Shown: piece after piece, positions 2,577-64,000 of the stretch | Numbering within the stretch: the first letter of the stretch is position 1 | Layout: every line of letters starts with the position of its first letter | Source of the DNA: Spinellus fusiger | Lineage: Eukaryota > Mucoromycota > Mucoromycetes > Mucorales > Phycomycetaceae | NCBI GenBank assembly: GCA_025094145.1 | Contig: JALLLS010000002.1 | Span: 62,001 to 126,000, forward strand | DNA: 64,000 nucleotides | Direction of reading: 5' to 3' | Notes under the pieces: model-generated | What the model was told of the DNA's origin: nothing | Databases searched by the model: none | What the model saw: the letters and a program-made list of their open reading frames with translations, nothing else | Translations under genes and position numbers: made by a program

Positions 2577-4102
2577 ATGGGACAGGGCACAAGTAAAATA
2601 GATGGGGGGCTTACCTTTGGCTATCTCACTTCAACAGTCACTTCTAAAGTCATGGCCCCTCATGATCGGCTAGTGACTCATCCCGCCCTATATGGCCTTG
2701 ACTGCCATGAGACGTCTTCTTCTGGCCCTTCAGAACAACTTGTACAAGACCTGGACTATATCGATACCACCTACTATGCCACCACGCGTTCTTCTCTCTC
2801 TGCAGCCACAGTCACAGACACAGTCACCGATACCACCACCACCATAGCAACAGCAACCACAGCAACCACTACCACAGCAACCACTACCATAGAAACCACA
2901 GCGTCTCGGCTAGATGTTGCTGCTGTGTCCAAGGCCTCACGAGACGGACAGCTGCTGGAGGTGCATCTCTCCTACCGCTCGATTGCTGTTCTCAGTCCAT
3001 GCATTGGCCTCCTCACCATGATACGTAAACTTGACCTGTAAGTACTCTCTCTCCATCCACAGACAGTCCTCACAGTGTTAGTTCCTGCAACTCTCTTTCG
3101 ACTCTCCCTGATACGATTGGCTACCTTGTCCATCTTGAAGAACTCCTACTGGTCAATAATGCCATGACAGACATTCCAGACACCGTCAGCTACCTCACCC
3201 GCTTGACGGTCCTGGACCTCGCCCACAACCACCTCACCCACCTGCATCCATGCATTGGCCATCTCAAACAGCTACGGACCCTGGGACTGTCGAACAACCA
3301 ACTGACCCGGCTCCCCGAAGACATTGGCCATCTCACCCACCTGACAGCCCTGGACCTTGCCCACAACCACCTCACCCGCCTGCCTGCTGAAATCTCTCAG
3401 CTGTCCTTCCTGCGTCGACTGTCACTGGAGGGCTGTCCACTCGACACCCACCTGAGCTATGCCCTGGCCTCCTCCCCGCCCAGTCTAAAAGAACTGTGTG
3501 CCAGACACATGGTACGTGCACAGCCGCCCTCCCACTATGCCCCCCTGCTGCCGAGCCACTTGATCCACTATCTGTCCTGTGCCAAGATGTGTACGTTCTG
3601 CCATGGTCCTTACTTCACTAGCTATGTTGTGCGCGGGCGTTTGATGGAGCGACCCGATGTCACCCTGCCCCTTGAGTACCGTCTGTGCTGTGCTCACTGG
3701 AGAGATGAGGACGACCGGCTGCTCGCCATGTTCTCCCAGGCCTCCCCCTCCCACTCCCTTCCTCGGTACAGGAGCCATCTCCAGCCACTGCCTGCTCTCG
3801 AGGTGCCTGTGGAGAACACCACGCGCGGCCTTCAGCACCGGTCTCACCCTGGGGCAGTGCCTTCTGTCTCTGCTGACACAGAGAACAATGAAGTCGTAGG
3901 AGAGGGATCACAGAGAGTGTCTGGCGTGTCTGGCGTGTCTGGTGTGTCTGGTGTGTCTGGCGTGTCTGGTGTGGCCGGTGTGGCCGGTGTGGCTGGTGTG
4001 TCTGGCTGGAAGGTGCAGCGGCTAAAGAAAGTCATGAACAGAAATCAGTCTGGGTTTCTTACCCTGAGCCATTTGAAGCGATCAGCTGCTTCCCAAGGAT
4101 AG
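2577..4102 (+). CDS. Leucine-rich-repeat protein with putative N-myristoylation site
   Basis: Two exons, 2577-3037 and 3082-4102, give about 493 aa. The first ATG yields MGQGTSK, which fits the N-myristoylation rule (Gly2, Ser6), so membrane attachment is inferred. Residues about 75-110 are a Thr/Ala low-complexity tract. About six LRRs of the 23-residue SHOC2/Ras-suppressor type follow (repeating LxxLDLAHNxLTxLPxxIGxL), and the 44-nt intron is removed inside one repeat. After the LRRs comes a Cys segment (CAKMCTFC ... CCAHW), a possible zinc-binding knuckle seen in some LRR proteins. Next is a tandem Gly-Val-Ser/Ala repeat from a 9-nt minisatellite, then a Lys/Arg-rich tail. Exact function is unknown; LRR proteins of this kind act as scaffolds. 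An antisense open frame over the repeats is a codon-bias shadow. Confidence 0.75.
3921..4005 (+). repeat. 9-nt coding minisatellite (Ser-Gly-Val / Ala-Gly-Val)
   Basis: About nine copies of a 9-nt unit (consensus GTGTCTGGC/T, later GTGGCCGGT) lie in frame within the LRR gene and encode a Ser/Ala-Gly-Val array. The count is likely variable between strains because unit length is a multiple of three. Confidence 0.8.
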
Positions 4103-4691
4103 ATTCCGCCTAAAGAAGTATCCATGGTTGATATTCCAAGGGTAGGATGGGCATCTATGTCTATGTCTATGTCTGTGTCTGTGCCTGTGTTTGTGTTCGT
4201 GTCTGTGCCTGTGTCTGTGCCTGTGTTTGTGCCTGTGTTTGTGTTTGTGTCTTTGTCTGTGCGTCTTTTTTTTTGTATATTGTTTTTTAACCTTTTTTTG
4301 TATTAAAGGCCTTTTGTGTGTGTGTGTGTGCGTGCGTGATTTCTTGCTGTCTTTTATATAATTGTTGGTGTGTGTTCTTTAGAGTGTCCAAGGCCAGTGA
4401 GCTTATGGAGTGTGAAGGGTACTGTAACTCATTGTAACTCATTGTAACTCATTGTAACTCATTGTAACTCATTGTAACTCATTGTAACTCATTGTAATTC
4501 ATTGTAATTCATTGTAATTCATTGTAATGTCCAATGCAAATGCATACCCTTGTACGTCACTGCAGATATCTCGCTTCCACAAACCCAGCCAATTTGAAGT
4601 CACGTCTCTATTGACACTGCTTCTGTCGCAGCTTGTTTTTTTTTCTTCCTCTATTTGGATTTCAGTGCAATACTCCACCTCCACAGGCAAC
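4103..4691. repeat. Spacer with hexanucleotide and 10-bp tandem repeats
   Basis: The spacer between the LRR and kinesin genes contains a TCTATG/TCTGTG-type run (about 4157-4260), a TG run (about 4313-4335) and a clean 10-bp array with unit GTAACTCATT, about ten copies, at about 4424-4528. The last three units change to GTAATTCATT, which suggests ordered expansion. An open frame through the first run is a repeat artefact. Confidence 0.75.
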
Positions 4692-8072
<3,381 letters not shown>

Positions 8073-8256: not shown

Positions 8257-11200
8257 TTTTTGTAAGGATTTAGTTTTATTTAAATCTTTTAGCAACGGAC
8301 ACACGTCACACTGAGCGGTGATGCCGTGAGGGAACTGGTAGAAGGAGAATAACTATGTAGAACCAGGAATTAAATATATACACTTAGTCAACAGCGTCTC
8401 TTTCTCTGAGGAAGAGAGAAACAGCTGTAAAAGAAGAAGAAATGATCATAGAAGAAGAGAAAGGAATGTCATCGAAAATCAATCGCCAATGGGCACGCCA
8501 CAGTTCACCAAGCACACTGCCAATGATCTGAGAGCTTCTAATATCTAATGGGTCGGGAGGGAGCTTAAGAGAGAAAATGTGAGATAGAACATCGGATTGC
8601 TTGGGCGGACAGGAAGAGAAAAAATGATTATAGAGAGCACACCACACAGGCCACTTGGCTGGACACTGTACTAGAAAGTGCTCAATAGTGTCAGTAAATT
8701 GAGAGCAGACTTGACACTGTGGTGACGGGAGAAATGTTGGTGAAATATGGTGAAGTAAGGATGCATGGGGAAGCTTAAATTGTAGTGCTCGATACCAAAT
8801 GTTGCGGCCGACATGACTAATTGGAAATTTCCAAAAGTCAAGCCAAAGAGCAGAAGAGATATGAGGGACAGTAGGTGTGAGTGCAATACTTGCAGAAAGA
8901 AAGCGATAAGTACTTCTGGTCATTCCAGTAAGCTTTGGTGAGGCAAAAAGAGCCGTAACAAGGGGAGTTGCATCCACTACTCCAAGAATACCATCATGAT
9001 TTCCATAGGGATGAGAAGGTGGAAGACATACTCTGGCAAAAGAATGCCGAGATATTGTCTGAAAGGATATAACGGAACGGAAATAGGAAGAGATGAGACG
9101 AATGCCCACAGATCTAGCAGGAAGGCTGCGTTGACATAGATGGCCCACCAGGGGATTAAATTCATAGGCATCTCGTACTAGTAGTTTGGTGTGGCCTGGG
9201 CGGTATACTGGCGGATCAAGAGGAGAAGGAAAGGAGACCGATAGCAGGGGAAGCGTAAGGAGAGTAGCAGGAGAGAGAAAAACATCATCTGTGATAGATG
9301 GAAGATGGGAGAAAGCACGAAACAGAAGTGTAAAAATAGAGAAAGGCTCTTTGATAGAGTATGTTCTCAGCAGAGGAAAGAAAAAAGGAAGGCGATGATC
9401 TTGTATGCCAGTACAGGCAGCAAGAATCTCTTGAGCAAGGAACGAGATGGGCAGGGCAGGCAATGGAGGGTACAGTAGTAGTGGTATTAGCCAGCGTAGT
9501 TGAAGGGCAGATTGTTGGACATAAGGATCCAATATTCCAAGACCACCACTGGCCCGAGGAAGACATAGAGTGGAAAATGCAATAGGAGGAAACATCCGCT
9601 TCATCAGAAACTTGCTAATGATAGACTGGAGTGATTGAAAGAAAGTACGAGGAAGAGGTGTGATGCGGATGACATGCCAAAGAGTAGAGAGAATGAGAGT
9701 GTTAACAATGGTGGCTCTGCCACGAACTGAAAGAAAACGTTGGCTGTGTATATTGGTGGCGGATCTTATCTTTCCAAGTAGTTGTGCGCAGGTAGATTGC
9801 CGTTGCTGTCGAGAACAAATGAGTGGATACCCAAGGTAGACCAAAGCAGTAGGGCAAGTATTGTCAAACCAAGCTGTAATCCCTGCCTCAATGAGCAATG
9901 GCTGCCATTCAGGAAGAGGACATCCAGAGAGAGAGAAAGCATGAGTTTTTTGAAGGTTCATCCTGGCATTGGATGCCTGTCCATATATTCTTAAGTGGTG
10001 TAGTATCCGTTCCAAGTCTACTGGATCCTGAAGAAAGACAACTACATCATCAGCATAAGCTAGAACACGAAGAGAAGATGTGGGAGGAGGGGTGACTGAT
10101 GGTGACAGAACAGGAGGAAGAAAACCTTTGAACGAGGTGTCTTGCAGCACACTCAACAGAAAAGGCTCCAGAACAAGATTAAAAAGAACAGGGGAAAGAG
10201 GATCACCCTGTCGAAGACCACGACTTTGCCTAACTGGTTGTGAGAGATGTCCATTGACATTGATGCGAATGCGAGTAGAGAAGAAAAGAGCAGTGATGCT
10301 ATCTACAAGAGATCGCGGAAAAGAAAAAGCTAGTAGTGTCTTGGTGAGCCAGGACGGGTGAACTCTATCATACGCCTTTTCTTGATCAAGAAGAAGGCCT
10401 ATTGCTGCTGAATTCGTATTCTTTGCACGTTCCATGGCCAGACGAACCAAGATTCCATTATCAGCAATAAATCGTCCAGGAAGAAAGCCGGTTTGACAAG
10501 GATTAATACAAGTACGAGCTACTTTAACCATCCTTCCATTGACCAAACGAGTGAATACTTTCGCATCACAGTTGATCAAAGAGATGGGTCGCCAATTCTT
10601 CAAAGTAGAGAGATCACTTTTCTTGGGCAAAAGGCACATGCTAGTTTCCTGCCAAGAAGGAGGGAAAAGAGCAGACAAGAGAGCATCGTTGTAGACCTGA
10701 CATACAAGACTGGCATAGTCTTGCCGCCTGAATACTAAATCCAGAATCCCATATGGCAATCCATCTGGGCCAGGGCTACTGCACCAAGGAGCACGCCGAA
10801 CACCCTGTTGGATGTCCTCAATAGTGAGTGGTACCAGAAGATCCTCTTGTTGTTGGGCACTTATCTTTCTGTCATCTGGTATCTGTCCAAGCAGAGTGTT
10901 GACTGAGTCTTCCTCAGTTATCTCTGGTGTGAACAGAGTGGTATAGAAGGCCTGTGCGGCTTCTGTCATAGTAGAAGGAGTGTCACATAATGCATTAGTG
11001 GTAGGATGATGAAGGGGCGGTACTGTTCGTTGAGTTTGTCGTGTCTGGATTGTGGCTTTAAGGTACCCAGGGGATTTCTCGCCCTGTTCCCGCCAATGTT
11101 TCCCAGCACGTAAAGCAGCAATATCCACTGTTTCCTGTTGAAGTTCAGCGATCTCTCTATTCAGTATGGCAAGTGTTGATGTTCTTAGGTCTGTAGGAGG

Positions 11201-13563
11201 ACAACTGCGAAGAAAGTGATTGAGTTTACTCTGTAGTTCTCGAAGCTTGCGCTCTTTCCATGGTTTGTGTCGACGTCCAAAAGACTTGGCTACTCCACTA
11301 ACCGTTGATTTTACCTGCTCCCATTGTTCTTGAGGAGAGGATGAAAGGTCTAACAACGGCAAAAGATTGCTAAGGTGTGTGTCTAACTTTTGACAGAAGT
11401 GTTTGTTGCGAGTGAGAAGGGGGTTAGCTCTCCAAAGGCCTCGTCCACTCTTAGGAGAGATTAAACGAAGGGAAAAGGAGAGTAAAGCATGATCTGTCCA
11501 GGCAGGATTAGTAAAGTCCACAGTGGACTCAACCAAATTGTCAGAGAGAGAGAAGTATAGGCATAGTCAATAGTTGACATAATCTTGTCATTATGACGGA
11601 AGGTAGGCATAGGTGTAGAGCCTGTGGGTGTCATACAATCCACAAACCGTTCTTTTAGCATATCATGCCAGCCAGCTGGAGCATTGCTTTGAGAATTGGG
11701 ACGGGCATAAGAGAAGTTGAAATCCCCCATCAAAAGAAGACGATTGTAACAGTCATCTAAATCCGAAAAGGGGGCCGAGCGAAGGAGAGATGTATAGAAG
11801 GAATGTCGAAGGGTATATGAATGAGAAGGAGCATATAATACCATAATGTAAAATGGAATAAAGTATTCACTAGCATGGGAGACTCGAGCAAGAATAGCCT
11901 TGTCATCTTCAGGAATCGGAATACGTTCCAATATGACTTGTGGGGTGAATGATACAATACCGCAGCTGTAAGTCCAAAGGGAGGAATGGGCACAAAATTG
12001 TGAGTGAAGTTGTGATTGTAAGGAAGGTGTGGAAGCGTGTGTTTCTTGTAAGGCAAGAATATGAGCATCTTGGCTGCGTAAGTGTCGAATGAGATGGGAA
12101 CGTTTTTTAGGATCAGATATTTTGGCCAGGCTGTTGCAATTAAGACTTGCAACTTTGATAATGGTAGATTTCTCTATCATTAAAGATTAAGTCTAAAAGG
12201 CTTCCCGGCATGACGGGGAGGGTTGGTACGGGAAGGAACTACAGATGTCAAGGACTTGAATCCTTTGGAAACACCTCTACTTGTGGTGGTCTTTGCTATC
12301 GACTTGAGTGTTGGTGTAGATACACTCGACTTATTATTACGCAGTGCCCGTCCAATTGACTGTGAGGTGCGTGGTGAGAGGTGAGGGAACTCTTCTGCCA
12401 TTGTGCTGGCAGTGGACTGGTATGAGATTACCGAGTCTGCTGAGCCCATCTCTGACTCTGTAGACATGGAGGCCTCTACCTCAGGCGGACTGGCCAAGAC
12501 TAAGGTAGTATTTGTCTGCTTTTCTGATGCAGGCAGGAGTACCGTGGGTGCCAGTGGTGTATTCTCTGAGGAGATATCTACACTCTCCTCTGATACTGTA
12601 GGCGATATCATAGGCTCAGACATAACCTGTTCTTCCAGACGTGGCAAGGTCTGGTGAGAAGGAGCTGGTGTACGTCCTCCTTTGCTGTTGTTGTGGTGGT
12701 GGCTGTGGGATTGAGCTCCAATTGGCTTCTCTGGGCAAGAAGTAGCAATATGGCCTGGCTTTAGGCACTTCCAGCATCTGCACTGTCTACTGGGTCTTTG
12801 GGGGCACTAGTTTCTGTCATGTCCATGTTCATGACAATACCTACACCATGTGGGCATGTCATTCCACATGGCATGAAAGCCATCAGAAGTGTTCATCCAC
12901 GGAATGAGATGAGTAAGAGGATCAATGTCTTGTCCTTGTTGGGGATCAATGTCCATAATGGCATACCCAGTACCCATGTATGACTGAGTCTTGGGCTCAC
13001 GACACAGGCCAACGTCCAGAATGCGACCAAAAGGCTGCAGACTCTGACGCATGCCATGAAGTAGATCAGGAATGTCCATGAATGGAAGACGAGATAGGTT
13101 CAGGCGGGTGATATTGGTGGATCGGTCTTCTGCACGAGAAGCAAGAATGACAGTGTTATCTTTTTCAAATAACAGTCCTTCATCACAAGCACGGGAGATC
13201 TCATCCTGGAGTTCAGGGTGAAAGTTAACCTCACATAGATGCTTGGGTCCTTCTTTGGGGAAGATAGTACCCCGGCGAAGAGGGTACTGAGCAGTAATCA
13301 GCTCCAAGAGCTGAAGTTGTGTTTCTGAGCGACTCGAGACGTCAAAAATGACACTTCCAGGAGAACGACCATTTCTCTAGATGAGAGTCTGTAGGACCTT
13401 ACGTCCAGTTGATGAAGTTGTAATGAGCTTGTCATTATGAACTAATGATTCGCGCTGGTTCGATACCACTCGGGCCCAAGTGCGAGAAGGTGCATGTTGG
13501 GTGTTGGGTGGGTGGGTGGTGTTTGCCTGAAGCAGGTGGTTCCTGAGTGTTAGCGGAGAAAGC
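8257..13563 (-). mobile_element. L1-like non-LTR retrotransposon (LINE)
   Basis: A 5.3-kb element on the minus strand, with ORF1 (zinc knuckles), ORF2 (AP endonuclease, reverse transcriptase, C-terminal Cys/His motif), a short 3' UTR ending in ACAAAAA and an 18-bp perfect target duplication. ORF1 has two in-frame amber codons and a frameshift, and ORF2 has one frameshift, so this copy is probably dead although the RT frame is intact. The 5' end starts inside or just at ORF1, which suggests slight 5' truncation. Known: L1-like elements (Grem-LINE1 of Mucoromycotina) sit near Mucor centromeres; membership of that family is inference. The reverse strand is open over long stretches, but those frames are shadows. 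Confidence 0.9.
8384..12180 (-). pseudogene. LINE ORF2: endonuclease / reverse transcriptase, one frameshift
   Basis: The first part (12180-about 11540) is the AP-endonuclease-like domain, with the LQETHAS glutamate, GDFNF and, after the shift, WTDHALL as the catalytic Asp-His. The second part (about 11550-8384, over 1000 codons open) has RT motifs in order: LLPKKSDLSTLKNWRPISL, LLLDQEKAYDRV, SRGLRQGDPLSPVLFNL and the catalytic YADD. It ends with a Cys-x2-Cys...His-x4-Cys motif (CQVCSQFTDTIEHFLVQC) of the zf-RVT type. The frame change falls in a (TC)n tract at about 11541-11552 and looks like a 1-nt slip. No RNase H domain was seen. Start ATG 12180-12178 overlaps the ORF1 stop as TAATG. Confidence 0.88.
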
Positions 13564-13581: not shown

Positions 13582-15450
13582 ATGTTCGCTTGTCTATTTT
13601 ACTGTTATGACTTCTTTTTTATAGTAATAATAAGTTGTATCGTCATCTCAAGGATAGACATCATGGAGTATATCGGCTTGTTGGCTGTATTCTTCTAATC
13701 AGGCTTCTTTTTTATTATTATTTTCTACAGAAGAATGACAAGTGATTGATGATGCTTATGTTTACCCTGTTATTCAGTTTTTGCTTCTTGTTCTTTCCAC
13801 ACTATGAACATATTATCTGACCTGTGAGTTTCATGTGATCAGATCAAGTCTACATTGCCAAAATGTAGTTCTCCGTGGTTCAGGCAAGATACAGTTGAAG
13901 TTCAAACATCTCAACTATTTCAGATGGCCATTTCCCATGATAGACCATCCACTGACTCCAAATCTATCTTACTATTTGTATTTACATCCCAGTTCTATCA
14001 TTTATTGGCTTGGATCTCAAGAACTGTATAGAAGAATTGGGTGCTCCTGATGTTTGGATTCTATAAATATAAAAATGTGCATCTATGAACATTCTATTGG
14101 TCATTATAAACCGTTAGGAGAAGATCATCCAATGGGTTCAATTGAAACATTGGATAGACGAGAGAAAGGTAGTGAGATCATAGAATAAACAGAGAGTAGT
14201 CTATCTGTTGGCTCTAGAACATGACTGGATCCATACAAAGATATTTGGCAGATAAATCCATGTTTTATGGTATTTAGGCTTACAATGGAAATCATCCATC
14301 TGGTTTACTATTTACCATGATTGTACTTGGACACAGTGTATCTACTTATTTTAGAATATTAGTCATTAGATTCTTATAACTTATGCAGATATTAGTATAC
14401 TAAATTTCTAGTTTTAGAGTACTAAAGAACATCAGCAGCCTGAACTGCATGAGGCAATAAATGAAGTTGAAAATATTCTAAAAACTAAAAGCCCCCCTGT
14501 CTTTTTATTATTATTATTCAATATTAAAATACAATACTGTTTTTGTTGACCAGACTATAGATAAACACTGTTGCTTTTGTATTCATTTGTAAACAGTTTC
14601 ATGTGCTTTTATTCACCCAACATTACTCATCTGTTTGATATGAATTTTACTAGAACTAAGAACCTTATCAGCTTCTCCTCACCTATACGTACAGGCACAG
14701 ACACGGACACGAACACAGACACAGACACCTCAAAAACTCGTACCAACATGTGCACACGTCCATTGTTAGCTAAACATTGATGGATGGGGTACTTTGCATG
14801 CTAAATAGGAGTATCTTTACCATTTATTTTTATATTTTATATAATTACTGAAAAATTACTTTTTTTTAAGAAGGGTGAATCCGGCTAATTGATTGGTTGG
14901 TGCATAATGCACAATCACCCTCATTAAATGTGTTTAATATTTGTTGGGAAGCATGGTGATAAAAGGGAAAAAAGAGACTTATTCATATTGTATGAAGCAC
15001 GTTTTTCTTTATAGATGTTGTAAGGTCAACATAATATATCATATGGATATTCAGAATATTATATTTGTGGGGAATAGGACAAGACAAAAGATAGAAGATT
15101 ATTGGGCATTTATTGCCTGATTATGACCGGATTAAGGTTGGCTGTAATTGAGAGGAAAAAGGCCTATAGTTTAAAGTAGTATTAGAAAGAACCCATTTGC
15201 CTCATACAATCAACTGAAATTGGGAATATTGAAGTTTGAAGTGGATGTATGTAGAAACACCATTATCAGCCACTGTAATCAGTTGGAGTTTGGATATTTT
15301 TATGTAAAGCACACTCTGGCCCTGACTGCAAAACACAAAAAGAAATGACTTTTTTAGGCTAATGAACATATCAATTGGACAAACAACCAATAGAAAGGCT
15401 TCATCTAGTCTGATAAGTCAACATAAATTATGAAAGGGAATGATAGAGAT
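13582..15450. other. AT-rich gene-poor stretch with degraded coding-like segments
   Basis: No intact gene. About 13835-14180 keeps codon-like texture (a segment reading ELGAPDVWIL is interrupted by stops and shifts) and may be a relic, but it is not recognised. A short run of CACAGACACGGACAC-type repeats lies at about 14695-14730. The rest is AT-rich without support for a gene. Confidence 0.4.
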
Positions 15451-15499
15451 GCCTGTGTCATTAAAATAATTAGATAACTTTATGATCCTAATCCTATTG

Positions 15500-15829
15500 T
15501 TTCAACAACGTAGTTTGGTGGCGGTGGTGTGATGTTTTAGAGTTGTTTTTAGGCTAATGGATCTGGCTTATTAGTTCTTATTAGTAGCACTGTAAACCAA
15601 GACGAATACATCATTGTTTTAGTTAGTGAGTTCCATCCTTGGTTTATGGAATTTCATCAGAAAGAGGACAGCGAGTTTCTGTTACAAGAAGAGGGTGATA
15701 GCTGTCATACTGGGGCCTATGTCAGAGGGTGGAAAGTTAGTATTGAACTTGCACAACGATGATCTCAGAGTATGACAGACAGATGTCAGGCTGTCATTGA
15801 TGCCAAAGAAGGCCATACAAAGTATTAAC
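15500..15829 (+). pseudogene. Tc1/mariner transposase relic with internal deletion
   Basis: The translation keeps pieces of a Tc1-type DDE transposase: a GGGG-V-M glycine run with a Cys-Phe, a STVNQDEYI segment, GDSCHTG in place of the second catalytic Asp motif, and the C-terminus MTDRCQAVIDAKEGH followed by a stop. It is clearly related to the longer copy at 51190-52195, which has TVNQDIYV, GAGCHTGG and MKDRCQAVIDTKGG. About 200 bp that would carry the third catalytic residue (SPDLNPIEHLW in the other copy) are missing. Stops and shifts interrupt the rest. The 3' flank ends in a shared ATTCAATTGAGT block at about 15975-15986. Confidence 0.75.
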
Positions 15830-15989
15830 TATATTATTATTTTATTTTCAATCATTAAAGATATTAAGTTTTGTTGAGCTTAAGTCTGAAGCTTCTAAAT
15901 CAAATTTAAAGTGTTTTATTTTATGTTGAACATGTCTTATCTATTTCGTCCTGATCTTTATATTCAAAGGTATTCAATTCAATTGAGTA

Positions 15990-16709
15990 TGGCTGTATTT
16001 ACACTTTCTTTAACAAGTATGTTTATCCTAATTATATACTTAATAACTTTTCTTTATTAAACCATCCTCAAAATAGATATACAGGCTGTTATAAGTATGG
16101 TTATTTGCGCAAAAGTCATTATGATTGTCTAAATAATAATAGAAACCAGCCAGAAAGTAGAGACATTGTGATATGACCAAAAAATGGTAGCATACTGCAA
16201 AGAATGAATAAAATGAATCAGTCATACAATCCTATGAGATATTTACTTCTCCTTCCTATAGGATAAGCTTTATATTTGAATAAAGTGTATTGATCTTTCA
16301 GAGATAATATAAAAGCACAACAGCCTGCATTAGAATGTATGCCTTTTGGTGTTGATTTCTGCCAAGTTTTTCTATTTGTAGTAATCATTAAAGTATAAAA
16401 GAAATATAAAAGAATAACAAACAAGTTGAATAAATAAGAGCAGAGTTAATTGCACGTTAACTAAACCAAATACCTTTGGACCTAAGAAGCCATTGACAAC
16501 ATCATAATATCAATGGATAATAAATAATAGCTGACACTAATCAATGTTACTAATAAAATAACTATTTATTTCCTCTTTCTTATTGTATTCTTATCATTTC
16601 TTTCTGAACTAAAGGTGTTATGCAGCCAACAAGATACGAATAAAGTAAAGAAAATACAACATGCCTATAGAATCAACCTAGAGTTCTTACATGTGTTTGA
16701 TTTTTATAG
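15990..16709. other. AT-rich spacer
   Basis: No gene supported. The end of this stretch (TTTTTATAG at 16701-16709) looks like a splice acceptor for the following TnpB/Fanzor-like relic, so upstream exons of that element may be degraded within it. Confidence 0.4.
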
Positions 16710-17261
16710 GAGACTGATGAAAGGCCTATAGCAAGTTATTCAGTTGCGAATCCTACCAGAGTAATGGCAATAAAGGGAAAAGGCATGTGGAGGATGTTGA
16801 AGAAAGAAGGACTCAGACTCTATCTTATCAATGAATTCAAAATATCAAGCCTGTGTCCTGGGTGCAAGTTCTCACCTTTGGAAACAGTTAAACATGTCAA
16901 GAACCCCAGGCCCTATCAACGAACAAAAATGCCCAAAGTTAAATGGTATGGTCTTCTCAGGTCATTTCTTCTTAATTCTATATCAAAAAAGAAACTCAAC
17001 TTTTTCTCTCTTCAAATAGGTGTTCAAACCAATATTATATGAACAAGACATTGAGGATTTGAAAATCGTGATCTAGCTGCTACATTGAACTTTAGACATA
17101 TTCTAATGTCTCAAAGGGAAAATAGTACCCGCCCAGAGCGCTTTTGTAGATATAACAAAAGAAAACATGACTCCAAAGATACAACTAGAACCAAGAAAAT
17201 GTCCAAGATTTCTGGTTTATCCTTCTCCTCCCCAGTTATCGCTGGAGCCTCGGTTGACTAA
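16710..17261 (+). pseudogene. TnpB/Fanzor-type RNA-guided nuclease relic, C-terminal part
   Basis: Read across an intron (16961-17019, GTCATT...AATAG), the protein contains INEFKISSLCPGC, the RuvC-adjacent Glu plus first half of the zinc ribbon. A second Cys segment (LLRCSNQYYM) follows, then NRDLAATLNFRHI, the NRD-x-A-A-x-N motif that supplies the last RuvC aspartate in TnpB and Fanzor proteins. It ends in a basic tail and TAA at 17259-17261. A 1-nt insertion and stop lie just before NRD (TTTGAAAATCG where TTTGGAATCG is expected), and the second ribbon Cys pair has lost a Cys (Y in place of C). No N-terminal half is visible. Known: Fanzors are eukaryotic relatives of TnpB that cut DNA guided by RNA from the element's 3' end. 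Inactive here. Confidence 0.75.
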
Positions 17262-17358
17262 CTGACGGAAACCCATGATACAGATAGACTATCTAAAAAC
17301 ATAATGAAGTGTATCTTATTGAATTTTTTCATGCAAAGAGACATTATAATGTCTAGTA
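17213..17358 (+). repeat. 3' end of TnpB/Fanzor element (conserved block, copy A)
   Basis: A block covering the last codons and 3' flank of the relic. It matches the reverse complement of about 50518-50668 at roughly 85 percent by eye, including the core GCTGGAGCC, ACTGACGGAAACCCATG and the terminal palindrome AGACATTATAATGTCT. Homology stops soon after the palindrome, so this marks the element's end. In known Fanzor/TnpB systems this position encodes the guide RNA scaffold; that role here is inference. Confidence 0.7.
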
Positions 17359-17359
17359 G

Positions 17360-18585
17360 ACAAGAGACTGAAACTGTACTATAAGAGTAAGGCCATGGAA
17401 ATAATCAATAGATACAATTCTAATGTCTTGAAGAAAACATTAATATAAAAAAAAGACTATGAGTGGGTAAAATACAAGAAAAGTTCCATCCAATAGCTAG
17501 TAGGATCTTCCTTGGACAAACCATGTTTTATTTGAAACTATAATAAACTCTATGTCTTTGTCAACTATGGCTTGTTTGATTTCTAAAGAGACTGGGTATT
17601 ACCTCTCGTGAAACCATCAATGAATTGCTATTATTACCAGTAAGTCCTTAAAGTAGTATTGTTGATTAGTGCTGAGTGTTTTGTGAGTTAGTGCATCGTG
17701 GAAGACTACGCTAGTACTAACAAGCACGCTTGTCTCTTTCAAGTCACACTGTAGACTCTTCTTATTCATAGAACTTATTCATAGAACTACAGAGAAGACT
17801 CATTACTACTAAAATAAGGTGGTATCCTATCATATGAGCATAGGGATATAAGAGTGAAAAAGACTAAATATAGTATTGAGATCATATCCAACAAGTTTTA
17901 GAAAACTCAATATTTAAATCCAACCAAGTTTAAACTTGCTTGAAGAAGACCAATCGGATAAAAAGCCTGCTATCTACCACACAACTGTCATTGGAGACTT
18001 GTTGAGTACCGAAGAATGAAATAATCTGATAGTTCAATAGTAGATTTATTGTTAGTGGATACAAGTATCCTATATGGATATGAGTGTCATCATTTATTCT
18101 ATCTAATGTTTGTTGTTTTTAAATGAAATACTTTTATTGAACATCTTACACATGTTGGTTTTATTATTATCAGTAAAAGGATTAGATAGTATGTCAATGG
18201 TATTCAAGATGTTATAGTCATATAAATTAATGTAAAGTGATAACTGTAAAGGAAAATTACTTCCTTCTTTTGGTAGGTCGACTACTGACAGCCAAGAAAG
18301 CTTTCTTTCTTTTGGAACCTGTGGAGGAAGCTGTATTGTTTGTACATAAAATCACTCTGATCTTTTTATTTTATTTTCATGCAAACCATCAAGAATAAAG
18401 TGACCCTAAGCAAGTAACCATAAGTTTTCAAATGTTGATTTCCTTTTATATATACCCTATCTTAATAGTGTTGTGACTTCATGAATCCATTAGATAGAAA
18501 CACAAAAAAATTCAATAGATACATAGAGATGTATGGACAATACAAAACAGTGGTTTTATTGTAAGGTTGATTAGTAACTACTCTC
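17360..18585. other. AT-rich spacer
   Basis: No gene or clear relic seen. Confidence 0.4.
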
Positions 18586-39891: not shown

Positions 39892-42778
39892 ATGACTCAG
39901 GGTTATTCTTCTCTATCTAACAAGAGTGATATTGAAAGAGCACAAATTCAGTATAAACAAGATCCATGGTACCACAGGCCTATTGAGTGGTGGAAGGAAC
40001 AATGGAATGGAGACGAACACAAGTCTCTAATCAATAGCAGAACTGGTACATTTGAACTGCCTCGAAGAAACACCTTTAGAACCGTTGTGACTGTAGTCTC
40101 TATTATTCTTGGTGTGCTGTCTCTTGGTGTTCTTGCTAGTCTTGCTATTTTGAATGGTAAGAACATGGCCTATTTACTGTCTGTGAATTGTAAAATGAGA
40201 TGTCTGTCGATGGCTATGAATTCAAGGGGAGAATTCTCATTCTCGTTCTCATTCACATTTCTATTCACATTCTCATTCTCATTCTTCTATTTTGGTTATC
40301 TTTTATTATTACTATAGGAAAAACCAACAAAAGAATCCCAACAGCAGCAGAGACCTACATTCTAACCCATGCATCTGCCAATAATACACACCAGTACCTT
40401 AAGCAGTACGCATCAGAAACACATATTGCTGGGTCAAATAATGATAAAAAACAAGCAGAGTGGACTCGAGACAAATTCATTGAGTTTGGCATTGACACAG
40501 AAATCGCAACTTATTGGCCGTTATTAAACTACCCTACTCAACACCGCCTGGCAGTTGTCTCTGGGCCAAAAGAATTCCATTATGAGGCTTCTCTTACTGA
40601 GGATATTGTTGACGAGGACCCAACAAGCAAAGAACAAAATGCTGTTCCTGCATTTCACGGTAAGAGTGGAGTCAGCTTTTTCTTTTTCTTTTTTTTCTTT
40701 TTTTTCTACTTTGCATAGTGACTAATTGTGTCCTTAGGCTACTCCAAGAACGGGAGTGCTACTGGTCCAGTGGTGTATGCAAACTATGGGCGTCCGGAGG
40801 ATTTTGAGTATCTGTTGAAAAAGGGTATCAGGTTGAATGGTACTATTGCTTTGATGCGTTATGGCGGTATTTTCCGTGGTCTCAAGGTCAAGGCAGCTGA
40901 GGATTATGGCTGTATTGGTGCCTTGATTTACTCTGATCCAATAGATGATGGACCTGTTGGTAAAGAGGACTCCAAGTCATCTCCTGCTAAGGCTTATCCA
41001 GAAGGACCCTGGTAAGTTTATCTTTTTTTTTTGTTTCTTATTTATTTATTTGTTTATTTCATTGACTTATCTCTGGCTGTGCGATGTAGGCGATCTTCCT
41101 CTTCTATTCAACGTGGATCTGTTCTCTACCTTTCTTTAGGCACAGGAGATCCATTGACACCCGATGAGCCTGCTACTCAAAACGCCACTCGTATTAAAAT
41201 GGAGGACACAAACGTACTTCCTTCTATTCCCTCTCTACCTCTTTCATGGAAAGATGCTCTTCCATTATTGAAAGCAACTCAGGGACATGGTGTATACCGT
41301 AAAAACAACTGGATGGGTGGATTAGAAGGTGTGGATTACTTCTCTGGACCTTCAGAAGGAGATGTCAATATGGTGAATGGTGTAGAGTACAAGATTACAC
41401 CTATATGGAATGTTATTGGTCGTATTGAGGGTTCAGAAGAGCCTGACAGTGCTATTATTCTTGGTAAGTGATCTCAGTACCATGCATTGGTCTATAGACC
41501 AATGTCTATAGACATTGGACAAGTATAGTGTGGAAGGTCTCATAATAATATAGGCAATCATCGTGACTCATGGGTGTATGGCGCTACTGATCCTTCTTCT
41601 GGATCTGCTACTATGGTAAGTAAATAAATAGAGAGGATTATGAGTGAATATCTATCTTGGAAAGAGGGTTCCTGGGATTACTATTTTTTGTTTAAAAGAG
41701 AGAGAGAAAAAAAGAAGAAAAAAGATATCAACCCTTATCTCTTTTTTAGCTTGAGCTTGCACGCCTATTTGGTGAGCTTCTTAAATCAGGATGGCGTCCC
41801 AAGAGAACCATCATACTTGCATCTTGGGATGGTGAAGAATATGGCATGGTTGGATCAACAGAATGGGCTGAAGAACACAAATCATGGCTCAGTAAAAATG
41901 GCGCTGCCTATATCAATGTGGATCTTAGTGTTACTGGTTCTCACTTCTCTGCTTCTGCAAGTCCCTCCTTGTCCAGACTTTTGTATGAAGTGACTCAGGC
42001 AGTCACCGATCCTAACACTGGAAGCAGTGTTTATGATGCCTGGAATGCTCTTCCGAAACCAAAAGACATCGTGTCTAACAAGCCTTATGTTGGCCAGCTT
42101 GGTTCTGGTTCAGACTTTGTTCCTTTCCTAGACTACCTTGGTATTGCTAGTGTTGACATGTCATTCTTGGGTGATTACGGTGTCTATCACAGCAACTATG
42201 ATAGCATTCACTGGTTGGAGAAGTTTGGTGATCCTACCTTCAAGTACCACGAGACAATGGTCAAAATATGGGGTCTTGTTGCTCTTCGTCTGGCTGATGA
42301 TCTCATCATTCCTATTCATGCTTTGGATTATACAGCTGAACTTGACAGATATGTCAGTATTCTCAACAAGTATTCCTACCCACACGTCTTCCCCTACCTT
42401 GAGAAGGCTGTGGGTAAGATGGCCGAATCAGCACATATCTTCCATGAGGAGTTAAACAAGGCAGAAGAACAGTTGACCCAATATATGAGTGTATCAAGTG
42501 AAAAGGTCCCTGTTGCCTTGAAACAGTCGATTAACTCTATTAACAAACGCCTTATCAATCTTGAGCGTGGATTCCTTGATCCTGAGGGAATTAAAGGAAG
42601 AACTTGGTTCAAGCACGTCATTTATGCACCTGGACTGTGGACTGGCTATTCTTCACAAGTATTCCCTGCTATCATTGATGGTTTGGACTCTAAAAACACT
42701 GATCTGACTCGCCATGCTGAAGAGCGTGCTATCAAAAGCATTCTACATGGAGCAAAGAAGCTCAAGCGTGAACCATGA
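39892..42778 (+). CDS. Glutamate carboxypeptidase II / transferrin-receptor-like M28 metallopeptidase
   Basis: Six exons: 39892-40156, 40318-40659, 40738-41011, 41090-41463, 41554-41615, 41750-42778, giving 781 aa. It is type II membrane topology: a short basic cytosolic tail, one membrane helix (about residues 65-88), then a PA domain (about 190-340) and the M28 peptidase core. Zinc ligands are all present: His in GNHRDSW, Asp in GATDPSSG, catalytic Glu plus ligand Glu in SWDGEEYG, Asp in YINVDLS, His in GVYHSNYDS. The transferrin-receptor-like dimerisation domain closes the protein. Known relatives include GCPII and the yeast vacuolar proteins Vps70 and Tre1/Tre2. Because the active site is complete, peptidase activity is likely; the substrate is unknown. 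Likely location is vacuolar or plasma membrane (inference). Confidence 0.92.
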
Positions 42779-46271: not shown

Positions 46272-49176
46272 TGTATGCTTGTATTTATGTGTAGAGAAAG
46301 AAAGAGAAAAAAAACAGAGGCATCTCTTTTATTTCTACAATGGGAGTACAGGCACAGAAATAGGGTTTAGCAGTCCGCTTGACATTTGTCCTCTTAGGAT
46401 TTGGATCTAATGAAAGGAGTCACAGAAGTAGAGATAAGGCCATCTTAGAAGACTACATTAGCCTCACAACATATATTTATATAGATATTTATATAGATAT
46501 AGATATAGATACTTATATATAAATATATTCATAAAGAGCTCCAAATGTCTATGTAGCAACGGTTATTTTAATCTTATCCTCTAGTTAAATACTATAGCCT
46601 ACAACAAACAATCACACTTGAAGAGTATTTGTGGGCTATTCTGCTCCATCTATCACAGTGAACACCTCTCTGGTGTATGGATACCATACCACTATAGATC
46701 CAATGGATGTATGAATAGGCACATCATCTGAACCTTTTACTTATTTATTTTTCCTTTGATGTCTTTTCTTTTCCCGAGATCATAGGAGAGGAAGCTGAAC
46801 AGAGAGTGAATTAGGCTGGTTAGATCAGTACCTTGAGAGTATGGTTCTGCTACAGTTCTATGCCCAATAAAAGACAAAGTATCTAAAAACTCATAGCATA
46901 ATCCTATACTTAATAGACTCTATAGACATAGGCACACCATCTCAAGAACCTTTTTTAATCTACAGTCATAAACTACAGTTACTTGTCTTGAATCGCACTC
47001 TACACCTATCAGATACCTACAAAATATCAGTCTGTGGATATTTAAATATCATGACTAATCTTAAAAGTGTAATAGTGTATATCATATTCTGAAGAAGAAG
47101 AAAAATGTGTGTTATGAGTTAGGAGAAAGTATTAACTTAATAACATGAAAAGCTTATTGAACAAGAAACTATTATGGTTGCTACTGTTATAATTCGAGTC
47201 TTGGGGTTGGGAGAACCTGAAAGTGATTGATATAGAATCTAGTGCGGTATTCAACCCCATTCTTCATAGATCTAAACTAAACCTACCTGCACAAATAGAT
47301 TAATAGAATTGTAGATAGAGTATAGCGTAACCCAAACAGACGGAGAGTAATTATTCTCACAATAGCAAGGGATATCAAGATGATGTAAACAACTAATAAG
47401 AGACAAGAAATAGATATACATGCAGGACACAAGATACAATAATACAGTAACATAGTGATATAGCATCACAGCTAGTTCAAAGGAAGAAGTAGAGGCCAAA
47501 ACAAAACAAAAGATTACAATTTAAGAAAATACAATCTCGACATTGTTAAATGCCTTTCTGCTATGATTCTTATAACAATAGATCCCATCAACATCTCCAA
47601 CTAGTGAATATGTCTGCACTAAGACTATAACATGAAAGTGGTTTGTACATCATGTTTCTTCTAGACAGGCTATTAGGTTTGAACAGTAGCTACTCATTCT
47701 CTCCTATTTTTCAATATTTGGTCCACAACATCAATGCCATAATCAACTGTACTCATACATTCTCTAACCATATCTTGATCCATTCGCTCTAAAGTGGAGA
47801 TGAAGTATGTCTATATGTTTATGTGTTTTATTTGATTTTTGATTCTTTGATTTTGTCGTACAAAATACATTTGTGATTATCTAATTTCAGTTTTTATCAT
47901 TCTATGTTGTGATTATAAATCAAGAATAAAGTATTAAGAAATTTAACAATACTAACAATTTCTGGCTTTGATCAGCCTGTGAATATCATGAGTGCTGACA
48001 GAAGGATTGAAGTGAAATTAAAAGCTATGGAGATGTAGAGAAGAGATATATAGCATTCTAATGGTTTAGTATTATTAGTATTAAAATTTCTGCCCAATAT
48101 AACTACCTCCAGATTCGATGAACCAAATAATGTATCACTTTACATGAATAAATAGACATGCTTGATAAGATATTAGATCAGAACTGAGTAAGCTGTGTAT
48201 TCTTAAGAGGTCCAAATATAAGGAATGTAGACTGCTTACAATCAACAAATAGATACTACAGGAAGCAATCCTGGTTGTCTTCAGAGTGACTCCATGTTCA
48301 AGAAACCAAGAGTATGGAGGATCACCAAATAGCCCTCGATGTGTAATTAAAGGCAAATAAAATTAATAGGTTAGTACTCGATATATAATACCCGAGTCAT
48401 ATAGAGAAGCCATGGTATCAGCCCACAATAAACGATTTTTAATAGCCCAGATATCTTTAGAATAGAACAGCTGTAAGATAATTGTATGTATTTTGCTAGT
48501 CATTGTGTAAACAGTTACCTGATAAGTATATAATAAATAAATAAAAGACTAAAGTGTACTACACTGCACTGCATTACTCATTTAGAAAGTTCTGTAGTAG
48601 CAGGAAAAACGACTAAAGTATAATAAGGCATTGTACAGCTCTATGCCATCCACATGTTATGATAAATAGTAACTGAAGATAGATAGATTTGCTAACGTAG
48701 TTCTTGATCAGAATATAAATTCAAAAGTCCATATAAACAGAGTGATTAAGACAAGGCACTATGACCAGTACACAGTCCTTTCTAGAAGATAATCATCCTT
48801 AAGCAAAAGAAAAGAAGGAAACTAAATGTAAATTCATTAGAGCAACACTCTAGACTGCCTCTAATACATAGATACACACAGAAGCTATTAGGATGCTTCT
48901 ACTATCATTGGTCATCCATACTAACCTACAACCCTACTTGGCAATGACCTTACAAGGAAAATGAAAGAGCACAACCAAGAATTAGTCATCAATATGAAAG
49001 CGGACATGTTATGCATGTATTTGTAGATAGTATATTTTCTATTGTTTTATTTTAACAAAATGTATTTTCGAGTTAAGAGAAATAAAAGATGTACATTTTC
49101 TATACGACTATCTGTTTTATAGACACAGTAAATGCATGTCAGGAAGACTACACATCTACATATACAATAACATGTT
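46272..49176. other. Gene-free AT-rich stretch
   Basis: 2.9 kb with no supported gene. AGATAT runs lie at 46480-46520. A minus-strand frame at 48135-48356 is not protein-like enough to call. Confidence 0.45.
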
Positions 49177-50192: not shown

Positions 50193-50515
50193 AGTGGCGT
50201 AGGTGGTGATAGTAAATATAGAGTGGGGAGAGGAGAAGTAGCAGTAAAAAGTAACAGCACCAGGGCAAAAATAATAATAGGGCAGCTTGTTTTGAAAATG
50301 CTGAGTCATCCAATCATACTTATCCAATCCAATCACGCACCACCAGCAAGGAAAAAGAAAGAAACTTGGTGGCGTGATGTCTAATGTCCTATCCAATGAA
50401 CTGCATACATTAAAACTAAACTATAGATAGTATGGACAATACTCTCGTATTATTGGTTGTGTTATATATACTATGTTATGATACCTCTTAATAGTGCTGT
50501 TTTATTGGTGATATA
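50193..50515. other. Upstream region of DRE2
   Basis: No gene. The first 150 bp are the probable DRE2 promoter. Confidence 0.4.
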
Positions 50516-50668
50516 CTAGACATTATAATGTCTTTTTGAATAATAAAATCCAATAAGACACACTATATCACTTTTTAGATAGTTTGCCTGTAGCATGGGT
50601 TTCCGTCAGTGAGTCAACCCAGGCTCCAGCGATCACTGGGAAGAAAAAAGAATGATAAAACAGAAAGC
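50516..50668 (-). mobile_element. Solo 3' end of TnpB/Fanzor element (copy B)
   Basis: Reverse-complement copy of 17213-17358, about 85 percent identical by eye over 150 bp, ending in the same AGACATTATAATGTCT palindrome. No zinc-ribbon coding sequence accompanies it: homology begins about 50 nt before where the ORF stop lies in copy A. It is either a deleted element or a non-autonomous derivative mobilised in trans. Confidence 0.7.
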
Positions 50669-50669
50669 A

Positions 50670-51189
50670 TCTATCTTTTAATCAAAAAAAAAGATAGATA
50701 GAAATACAATAATAAAGAGAACTAAATACTTTTTAATAATGATATTGGAGTGTCAGCTACTATTTATCATCTATTGATATGATAGTGTCGTCAATAGCTT
50801 CTTGGGTTCAAAGGTATTTTGGTTGGTTAAAGTACGATTTATTCTGCTCTTTTTTTATTCAACATCTTTGTCATTTGTTTATTCTTTTATTTTACTCTAA
50901 TTGTTAGTACAGATAGAGTAACTTGGCTTCAATCACCACCAAAAGGCACACATTCTAACACAGGCTGTTGTGCTCTTATACTATCTTCAAAAGATCTATC
51001 CAATACACCACTTAGTATGCAGCCACACAACATTAGAAAGTATACGACCCCCTAATTTATACATTTTTAAACATGATTCTTCCTCTTCTTTTTACCACAG
51101 AATCACATTCCATTAAGCAATCTCAAATGTCAAACGTAGAACCCTCAACTAGAAACTCAAGTGTTTATAATAATCTTGAAGAAAGAGAG
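50670..51189. other. Spacer between Fanzor end and Tc1 relic
   Basis: AT-rich. It probably includes the degraded 5' part of the Tc1 element, but no inverted terminal repeat matching the 3' end was found. Confidence 0.4.
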
Positions 51190-52195
51190 TAATGGGGTGT
51201 TTGTTGGCTTTAAAAAGAAAAATACTCCATGGGTAGCATTTCAAAGGTCATTGGCATTAGCAAGTCCACTGTCCAGAATATTATTAGTAGAATCAAGACT
51301 AATGGTACACTTCTACCAAGACCTAGTTCTGGTGCACCAAAAAAATTAAACTAGAGAGACGTCAGATGACTTGAGGCCATTCTAAGAGGCAACCCATTTG
51401 CCTACTATAACTTCATAAATTTTGAACTTAGGGCACATCAGATAATCATCTGTAGTGCAACATTCATCAAATACATATACCATATTGGGCATGATTCTTA
51501 TTTTAAAGCACACAAGCCAAGGTTGTCTGAAGAAAACATAGGAAGAAAAGACTTTGTTGAGCGAAGGAACGGGTCAATTGGACTCCTGATGACTAGAGAC
51601 GCATTGTATAGTCTGATGAGCCACGGTTTGAAGTAGAGGGTTACCAGGGAAGAGCCAGAGTGATTCGAAAGATAGGAGAGAGGTATAAGGCTGCTCATAT
51701 TATACCTACAGCCAAATAGGGGAAAGGTAGCATAATGATCTGGAGATGTTTCTGGGCGAGTGGATTTGGGCCTTTGGTCTTTGTTGATGGCACTGTAAAT
51801 CAGGACATATATGTCAACATTTTGACAGGAAAATTTCTGTCATGGTTCATTGAATTGAATGAGAAGGAGGATAAGGACTTTATATTCCAATAGGATGGGG
51901 CTGGCTGCCATACAGGTGGCTATACAACATGGTGGAAAAACACACATGTAATTAGGCGCTTTGATTACTGGCCTGCCCAAAGTCCTGATCTCAACCCCAT
52001 TGAACATCTCTGGAGCTGTCTTGATAAGCTTATCAATGACAAGAGGGCCGGTATCAAAAATATCGATGAGCTCAAGACAGCTTTAGAAGAAGCTTGGAGA
52101 AATATCCACGTTGATCTTGCCGAACGTTTAGTTGGCTCAATGAAGGATCGCTGCCAGGCAGTTATTGATACCAAAGGTGGCCCAAAAAAACATTA
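51190..52195 (+). pseudogene. Tc1/mariner transposase pseudogene
   Basis: With stops and shifts ignored, the order is complete. An N-terminal helix-turn-helix reads MGSISKVIGISKSTVQNII, then RIKTNGTLLPRPSSGAPKKL. The first catalytic Asp appears as SDEPRFEVEGYQ, the second region as GAGCHTGGY, and the third as FDYWPAQSPDLNPIEHLWSC. It ends MKDRCQAVIDTKGGPKKH with TAA at 52193-52195. In-frame stops occur in at least five places (for example after GAPKKLN), so it cannot be expressed. A 3' block ATTCAATTGAGTG at about 52399-52411 is shared with the copy at 15.5 kb and probably lies at the element end. Confidence 0.85.
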
Positions 52196-61290: not shown

Positions 61291-63138
61291 ATCAACAAAA
61301 GATAGTGAGGAACTATTCAAGCTTAATAGTTAAATTTTAAAACTGCCTTTTTTATAGCCTCATTCCAGTTTAATCTATTGTTAGTAAAAATAATCGTCAT
61401 TGACAGTATACAAGTTAAGCATTTGCAAAACTAGAGACTAAGGTTTTCTTATCTATCCTATTAGCTGGGAAAAAAATGACAGTAAAAAGAAGACAAAAAA
61501 TAATACTCCCCCATGATTCTTTTCCGGTTTCTTTATTATTAGTAACATTCAAGTCATGAATTACAAGAGTAGATAACTATATGAGTTGATCTGTTCTTGA
61601 TCCTTAAAATCAGCTGTTTTTTAATGCTTTTCAACTGCTCAAGATTTCTAAATGTTTTTTTTAATTGAAGATACATCTTGTTTGATTCAACGTACAGCTT
61701 TAAACTATAGTCTTATAGCTAGCATATGCTTTCAATTTTCAATAAAATAAATTCAGAGAGTCTATAATTGATATTCCATATAAAAAAACTGTAAATTAAA
61801 ATACACTTGATCCAACTTGATTTGAATAAATAGGACAGGTCAGATTTATAACTGAGACTCTGATTGAATACATTCTCACTATAGTCGATTTTTCTTGTTT
61901 ATTTATTTATTACTCTTTATATGCCTAAAAAGAAAGTGATATAAGAATGACTATTTAGAGCGTTGAAATAAACCAAATATAATTGATGTTATGAATTAAG
62001 TAATGATAAACGAACAAAATGTATTGATACTACCTAAAACATATTCTAGATGTGTAAGTATAAATATCAAAAAGAAAATCATCATTAATACATGACTACA
62101 GCTCGGATAAACAAACCAAGATTTTATTAAAGTACACTTTTCTGACTACTTTTTCAAATATGGATCATATCATTCTATCAGATTTTTTTTAAAGAAAAAA
62201 TAGAATCCTTGATGGTGGTAATGTTGCTTATTCTTCTCTTTATAATAGATGCTATGGCTCATGCTGTGGTTATACAGTGTGTTTAGTAAAAGATAAGTTT
62301 ACTACTTTAATTAATTGGATCACTTATATCTTATTCTATTGCTACACAGACAGCCCTCTTTCTAAAATAAACCATGATCTCTCTTTTCAATGATATGTTT
62401 AGCTTGATACCTTTATAATATTCTCTAGATACCAATAGCTAAAGTAGAAAATATCAATTGCTAATTATTTTTAATCATAAACAAATATTCTCCTAAATTA
62501 TACACTTTGTCGTCTTTGGGTTTAACCAAAGGAAATCCGGACAGTTCAAAGAGTAAACAAAGTCTGATCTTTATTGATGGGTCTTTCTCTCTTCTTTTAT
62601 ACTTTTCTAATTGATATTTTCTACTAATAAAAGCTATGGAAAGGCCCCTGTTACTACAGTATCATCCCTGAGATATACGCCTTGCTACTAACTCATCTTC
62701 TACCATGTGGTCCCGTTTAGGCAATTTGTGTTTCTGTTGACTGGGATGATCGATAGTTCTGTTTATGGAAATATGATTATCCGACAACTTTTGTAAATTA
62801 TATATTTCGGTATTTCAAGCTATTCTGAGAAAGACAGCCATTTTCTCACTGCTTTTTACTAAAAAAAATAAGTATAATAATCTCCGACTATGTAATGAGG
62901 ATTAGTAGTTCAAGGTCCAAATCTCTTAGTACACACCTAAAGATCTTTAGGGTATAAAAATAAATAGTCGAGATACAATTGTTTAAAAATGACAAATCGA
63001 TTTGAAAAGGTGTGAAAATAGATTGAGACATATTTATGTTATTTTTTAAACAAATAAAGATTATTATGTAGATTTACCTGTAAATATCTGAATCCTGGAG
63101 GAAACTACCTTCGATGTAGCGATATATAACATGAATAT
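61291..63138. other. AT-rich gene-free stretch
   Basis: 1.85 kb with no supported gene; a few GC-richer patches (62630-62760) give no protein signal. Confidence 0.4.
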
Positions 63139-63860: not shown

Positions 63861-64000
63861 GGATGGAAGTTATGAAGAACAACAGACAGTGTGGTTGGCA
63901 GGTATTAATATCTGAGCAGAAAAGAATAAATCGAATTTTCACAAGTCATTTGCTTAATCAGAACTACCAAAGTAATGCAGACTATAACAACATTCTAGAA
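63861..64000. other. Right-edge flank
   Basis: Possibly the degraded upstream part of the second TnpB/Fanzor-type relic. Nothing can be called with confidence. Confidence 0.3.

Follow-up and report, generated by a model that had tools for sequence, protein, structure and literature searches.

Fanzor transposons of eukaryotes have several described systems that bear on the element reported here, Fanzor itself being related to the CRISPR nuclease Cas12. PpFz1 from Parasitella parasitica is an already known, characterized relative (PDB 9cf0-9cf3; PMC11423790), with ATN as its TAM. In other Fanzors, the wRNA is produced from the right end of the element and the guide is the sequence past that end; in characterized TnpBs, the guide RNA likewise comes from the right end (PMC10432273, PMC10711439). 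High copy numbers are also known, as Fanzor transposons reach up to hundreds of copies (PMC10711439). Bao and Jurka defined Fanzor1 by the motif D-X(125,275)-[TS][TS]-X-X-C4 zinc finger-X(5,50)-RD, described the Mucorales Fanzor1 elements ROr-4, PBl-3, and MCi-4 as MuDr-like with 9-bp duplications, and left the MCi-2 family of Mucor circinelloides unclassified (PMC3627910).

The locus compared with these systems lies in Spinellus fusiger, in a window that denotes the whole 64,000-nucleotide stretch analyzed (G000:C110:62001-126000; the genome comprises 38.08 Mb on 197 contigs). It is very probably a dead, internally deleted Fanzor1 copy of the PpFz1 lineage, belonging to a shortened lineage that multiplied while keeping its ends, was moved in trans, and has a 3' end that would once have supplied, or may still supply, a guide-RNA scaffold. 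Homology to Fanzor1, a large deletion, ends shared among many copies, decay, and an ACT signature beside the insertion sites are all seen in this family. Bacterial TnpB elements of the IS200/IS605 and IS607 types have the same layout, a nuclease gene followed by a scaffold-supplying right end (a role that is putative here), whereas the window's family is a eukaryotic Fanzor1 with a likely intron.

Identity and decay of the window copy

The features of the window copy and of its family in the window are as follows.

14837..17358, plus strand: full extent of the element copy (about 2.5 kb), which is decayed and carries an internal deletion (left-end match at 14837; right end common to 50 distinct copies)
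14837..14860, plus strand: left end, TTATATAATTACTGAAAAAT... (left-end alignment; copies diverge further upstream)
15181..15430, plus strand: relic of a Tc1/mariner-type transposase, HTH part (tblastn with the L016 ORF)
16710..16960, plus strand: Fanzor C-terminal exon piece (tblastn with L026 and L016; motif positions)
16765..16768, plus strand: internal deletion point (L026 matches split at 16765|16768)
16833-16835, plus strand: alternative Glu codon (kept in the window exon piece)
16854-16865, plus strand: CPGC (motif position)
16961..17019, plus strand: likely GT..AG intron, 59 bp (sequence only)
17020..17261, plus strand: second exon, frame broken (three-frame reading; tblastn with L026)
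From 17064, plus strand: NRDLAATLN, RuvC-III (three-frame reading)
17259-17261, plus strand: stop codon (sequence)
17223..17358, plus strand: conserved 3' block, candidate wRNA scaffold (alignments A1 and A2, pair counts, folds)
17339..17354, plus strand: terminal palindrome AGACATTATAATGTCT (sequence; one co-varying pair in 40 copies)
17355..17358, plus strand: AGTA, the final conserved element bases (exact in 43 of 50 copies)
17367..17369, plus strand: flanking ACT, from the 9th base past the element end, a target-site signature (sequence)
50514..51000, minus strand: second family copy, in which no Fanzor coding part is recognizable (palindrome identical to the first copy's, at 50518-50533)

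The original prediction had placed CPGC, NRDLAATLN, the stop codon, and the palindrome correctly. It had also proposed a TnpB-like domain, but the copy's own translation matched no TnpB or Fanzor profile: the raw window translation hit no Pfam family even at E ≤ 1, and its sole NCBIfam match was irrelevant (E = 0.094), so identity depends on relatives. Scans of the window with Rfam at the gathering threshold and for tRNAs gave no match.

The decisive relative is L026 (G000:C110:850600-860599), whose open frame of 663 amino acids aligns with PpFz1 (PDB 9cf0) over residues 11-493 and 509-627 (E = 4.1e-159) and with SpuFz1 of Spizellomyces punctatus (8gkh; E = 7.1e-43), a distant homolog that shares the RuvC-I and alternative-Glu/CP.C motifs. 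Homology to characterized Fz1 proteins thus places the family in Fanzor1 by way of L026. In tblastn searches, window positions 16770-17051 are 69% identical to the L026 C terminus (E = 3.7e-32), positions 17134-17262 are 84% identical to its second exon, and the exon piece is 71% identical to a further relative, L016 (E = 1.1e-59).

The motifs of L026 agree with this assignment. Its RuvC-I reads IDPGRRD (Asp 398), the usual RuvC-II place is occupied by ILGDWS, which has no glutamate, and the alternative glutamate sits in LINEF (Glu 592), ahead of the TS/zinc-ribbon motif. LINEF in both L026 and the window aligns with LIDEF of PpFz1 and LLDEY of SpuFz1, so that the rearranged RuvC-II glutamate of Fanzor1 is present in both copies. 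TSSLCPEC lies 196 residues past Asp 398, within the published range of 125 to 275 (PMC3627910), and the second Cys pair and NRD sit in the next exon. L026 therefore conforms to the Fanzor1 motif, while the window copy has lost the D to its deletion and has a damaged second Cys pair. L026 and PpFz1 share both protein lineage and catalytic layout, yet the stretch between the matched parts measures 93 residues in PpFz1 and 15 in L026, and on that account the cyclophilin-binding FRI insertion of PpFz1 seems to be absent from L026 (PMC11423790).

The nearest named homologs of the Fanzor relative are from Mucorales: Pilaira anomala (49%), Rhizopus, Parasitella, and Gilbertella. Neither L026 (16.4 bits) nor L016 (18.3 bits) reaches the PF07282 cutoff of 26.3 bits, and the profile is a poor test for this lineage because named Mucorales homologs also fall under the cutoff (Parasitella, P0003, 15.8 bits; Pilaira, P0001, 12.1 bits). 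Elsewhere in the window, a host peptidase gene has its nearest named sequence in Rhizopus stolonifer (57%).

The window copy is a relic with a broken frame and, unlike PpFz1, is dead. L026 positions 3041-4704 (1,664 bp) are absent from it at 16765|16768, and through this deletion of about 1.66 kb the RuvC-I part, including the aspartate, is gone. The original prediction of a spliced domain holds for the motifs and the likely GT..AG intron, but splicing over 16961-17019 enters a frame that hits a stop ahead of NRD, and NRD stands in another frame. A genome protein search placed two TGA codons inside the window copy, and in its spliced reading Tyr replaces the latter Cys of zinc pair two. Matches from 18 of the 19 other fetched loci cross the deletion point unsplit and so have the same deletion, a share to be read with the fact that the search query itself carried the deletion and so favors deletion-bearing copies.

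Longer copies seem to drift too. Four of them, with alignments to L026 that cover at least 1-504, have 94 to 96% identity to it in DNA and 89 to 93% in protein, and L026 is not a clean open gene, since its long frame diverges from that of L016 near the C terminus. Across 20 copies of the leftover ORF, 57 of 151, 57 of 150, and 37 of 150 columns vary at codon positions 1, 2, and 3, and variants present in at least 2 of the 20 copies number 27, 27, and 14 (third positions, 14 of 68). Third positions are not enriched, and hence the leftover ORF of the shortened lineage bears no sign of protein-level constraint; the pattern could come from postinsertion decay alone. The third positions in these copies (L009-L028) in fact vary less than the first and second, perhaps through mutational bias. 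Identity is 0.91 to 0.93 in the 3' half versus 0.83 to 0.87 in three upstream regions, with the intron equal to the exons; we do not count this difference as constraint, since the 20 long copies were chosen and ranked for their likeness to the 3' part of the window copy, a choice that skews the deletion share as well as the 3' identity.

A dispersed family, its ends, and its insertion sites

A genome-wide DNA search with 16710-17358 collected many copies: there were 436 candidates, and the best 40 that were scored all lay at 87 to 100% identity, the window included. At the protein level, the L016 C-terminal ORF gave 459 candidates, of which 150 were scored (150 rows, E ≤ 4.1e-27, some copies giving two rows). 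The part missing from the window copy returned 139 candidates as DNA (40 scored, 43 rows, 15 of them spanning the full 1,641-base query) and 449 as protein (79 scored, 84 rows). Copies reduced to the C-terminal part appear to be more numerous than copies with the nuclease core, the counts coming from best-scored rows and being not strictly comparable. The element is thus one that was copied widely, and deletion derivatives are usual for transposons.

A second Fanzor family is present in the genome. A PF07282 search gave 457 candidates, with 147 of the 150 scored rows above the cutoff, and the best rows belong to this different family (L029-L038), which at E ≤ 1e-5 matches neither the L016 nor the L026 copy in DNA and is therefore unusable for covariation. 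One of its copies lies in the window at 62930-64000, 86% identical to L030/L034, and runs past the window edge; its right end has the palindrome CCTAAAGATCTTTAGG at 62936-62951, right before TGTGTA, and sister copies have an imperfect palindrome at the same place. At window positions 47703-47852, weak similarity to the Fanzor N terminus of L026 (41%, E = 6e-4) possibly marks another decayed fragment.

The original prediction described a stop codon followed by a conserved block ending in a palindrome, and that end recurs in distinct copies with unrelated flanks. Right ends were collected from 20 loci (21 ends) and then extended to 50 distinct copies including these. The block is common to all 50 up to ..TCTAGTA, finishing in AGTA in 43, AGTG in 3, and other bases in 4. 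Mean pairwise identity across the 50 is 0.91 in the last 16 bases against 0.31 in the first 40 flank bases, one flank pair having a 21-base stretch in common. The 3' end is a true element boundary. A 16-bp palindrome is not in itself rare, as the window holds six perfect ones besides the (TA)n run, two of which are ends of this Fanzor family, but recurrence in 50 copies exceeds chance. At 41485-41518 the window also has a pair of perfect palindromes of 20 bp, CATTGGTCTATAGACCAATG and CCAATGTCTATAGACATTGG, that overlap each other.

At the left, TTATATAAT-TACTGAAAAATC is common to 15 copies, the window's included, and the sequence outside it differs. Between the two ends there are no terminal inverted repeats beyond chance (the best match is equaled in 46 of 300 shuffles). 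L026:1779-1853 is a tRNA-Phe (GAA) gene, about 30 bases upstream of the point at which the similarity of the L026 copy starts; ARAGORN found no tRNA in the other 19 long loci.

The second copy in the window shows that the ORF and the end can part. At 50514-51000 (minus strand), the last ~140 bases are kept (85% identical to L016), as is an upstream element part (79% identical), and no Fanzor coding sequence is left recognizable. The block without the ORF, which the original prediction had named as counting against it if seen in many unrelated contexts, was found in this one place, but the context is still the same element. The copy is a deletion derivative, because it has the upstream part of that element, and it follows that the 3' end can persist without the ORF. 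A Tc1-type transposase relic at 51379-52012 (plus strand) adjoins it in the opposite orientation. Among other mobile sequences, the window has a non-LTR retrotransposon at 8384-13376 (minus strand) with a 1,060-amino-acid frame (RVT_1, E = 3.6e-35; zf-RVT), an upstream frame that is endonuclease-like by eye, and a weak zinc-knuckle match.

Insertion sites carry a signature. ACT begins 7, 8, or 9 bases past AGTA in 8, 10, and 12 copies, respectively, for 30 of the 50 right flanks, and at neither 6 nor 10; the background is 7.3% in control windows further out (p ~ 1e-21). A smaller ACT peak occurs at offset 15 (6 of 50, against a mean of 0.73 per offset further out). Among 14 copies read at both ends, left and right flanks share at least 8 bases in 3 pairs versus 0.42 in shuffles (p = 0.003), the other 11 pairs having no such repeat, and a clear target duplication is seen only in L023 (9 bases) and L028 (10 bases). 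For the most part, these 14 copies do not follow the 9-bp target duplication expected of a MuDr-type Fanzor element; such an element would fit the repeats of L023 and L028 but is improbable, terminal inverted repeats being absent as well. The ACT signature, the lack of terminal inverted repeats, and the rarity of duplications suggest site-directed insertion. The host ACT(G)(A) 7 to 9 bases out also resembles the ACTGA that the element itself carries about as far into its left end (TTATATAATT-ACTGA), a likeness that site-directed recombination would give.

These observations recall MCi-2, another Mucorales Fanzor described without recognizable inverted repeats, with which we compare the family by description (PMC3627910). 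ATAATT is found at the left junction in the window's family and inside the duplication in MCi-2, and MCi-2A and MCi-2D have 11- to 12-bp duplications, ATAATTNNNN(N), in contrast to 2 clear duplications in 14 copies and ACT at 7 to 9 here. Since one MCi-2 subfamily has a partial Crypton transposase (PMC3627910), it is possible, and we propose it tentatively, that a tyrosine recombinase moves a Crypton-like element akin to MCi-2, inserting it beside ACTGA-like sites that resemble its own left end and producing only apparent duplications when the cores match. The mirrored ACTGA and the missing inverted repeats fit such an element, but the spacer to ACT varies in length (7, 8, or 9), and searches of the genome with GCR1_C and phage-integrase profiles did not recover a mobilizing enzyme: they returned one decayed GCR1_C and two subthreshold integrase matches, none of them in the fetched loci and the nearest at C138:66952-67470, about 6 kb from a copy.

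The 3' block as a candidate guide-RNA scaffold

What stands of the original prediction is that the element is a eukaryotic, OMEGA-type Fanzor in decay and that its 3' end is defined; the guide-RNA scaffold that it marked is a reading carried over from known Fanzors. By its position and its homology to them, the 3' block is a plausible candidate wRNA scaffold; one pair covaries, and the folds equal those of shuffles. Structure prediction, which had been expected to bear on the block, found it no stabler than shuffles: single-sequence fold energies had no excess stability over shuffled sequences (z, 0.11 and -1.18). In alignment A1, made of 40 distinct right ends after partial and identical sequences had been dropped, RNAalifold gave -14 kcal/mol, to which covariation contributed only -0.34 kcal/mol, and left the palindrome unpaired.

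Five small helices (26 pairs) were picked from the same 40 sequences and compared with a shuffle control that ignores relatedness; 96.7% of their cells are paired, as high as in 12 of 500 shuffles, and 5 of the 500 attain their covariation score. Two-sided change occurs in 1 of the 26 pairs, which 218 of 500 shuffles reach. This one changing pair, in the palindrome, is UA in 16 rows, CG in 11, UG in 10, CA in 1, and gapped in 2; in a larger alignment of 48 rows, not all of them as well aligned, 43 of 48 are paired (T..G 12, C..A 2). The alternative stems CCAG/CTGG, CAGTTA/TAACTG, and TCGGTT/AACTGA were also considered; they are mostly kept and were rejected as either too invariant or too often broken.

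It seems to us rather unlikely that the block is a transposition end and nothing else, that is, a recognition sequence for the mobilizing enzyme whose palindrome serves DNA recognition or folding. Any mobilized copy must retain an end, the copy free of Fanzor coding sequence keeps the block together with another element part, RNA folding of the block is no better than that of shuffles, and the RNAalifold consensus has no pairing in the palindrome. However, the varying palindrome pair is T..G in 10 and C..A in only 1 of 38 scored rows, as RNA G-U pairing would allow, and characterized Fanzors and TnpBs draw their guide RNA from this very end (PMC10432273, PMC10711439). The two roles can coexist.

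Movement of the shortened lineage and its meaning

An explanation that we consider quite unlikely is that a Tc1/mariner transposon took Fanzor along as a passenger and owed its movement, with TA duplications, to the Tc1-type transposase upstream: such elements carrying Fanzor are described (PMC3627910), TA lies near both boundaries in AT-rich surroundings, and a Tc1-type relic stands between the left end and the Fanzor in the same orientation (tblastn with the L016 ORF at 15181-15345, 75%, and 15329-15430, 50%; that ORF matches PF01498 at E = 0.0031 and 18.2 bits, under the 31.5 cutoff), but the inverted repeats that Tc1/mariner needs are missing, the matches of L017, L026, and L028 break off at window position 15048 and resume at 16051-16060, omitting the Tc1 part, and TA duplication explains neither the ACT signature nor the 9- to 10-bp repeats of L023 and L028. 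SPu-1 of Spizellomyces punctatus is described with inverted repeats of 33 bp and with TA duplications that are putative (PMC3627910); the window's family differs from it in having no inverted repeats.

We instead propose that, beside a longer relative with the RuvC-I aspartate, rearranged glutamate, and zinc ribbon in its Fanzor frame and RuvC-III in the next exon, a lineage short of most of the coding region (about 1.66 kb) was copied many times with both ends kept. A transposase or recombinase acting in trans most likely moved these shortened copies, and an enzyme recognizing an ACTGA-like sequence may have directed their insertion. The wRNA scaffold would come, or would have come, from the last ~130 bases, with the host sequence that follows AGTA as its guide. 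A further idea, which we regard as improbable, is that the shortened copies form a nonautonomous guide-RNA family, in which each insertion would keep the scaffold and thereby make the host sequence past AGTA a new guide, to be used by a Fanzor that longer copies provide in trans, amounting to a dispersed, self-renewing guide library at sites chosen by an ACT-directed integrase.

A literature search by titles and openings of abstracts, with most subscription papers outside its scope, found no work on shortened guide-bearing Fanzor copies. The ACT signature is new in this family, and it is also less usual that a copy free of coding sequence still has its 3' end. The wider question behind the family is why eukaryotic transposons retain an RNA-guided nuclease. 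Decayed, shortened copies that share a 3' end and sit beside nuclease-bearing ones offer a test bed for the retention of guide ends and for the action of Fanzor in trans. The ACT signature, in turn, gives a handle on the enzyme that moves the element, and the same question stands for MCi-2.
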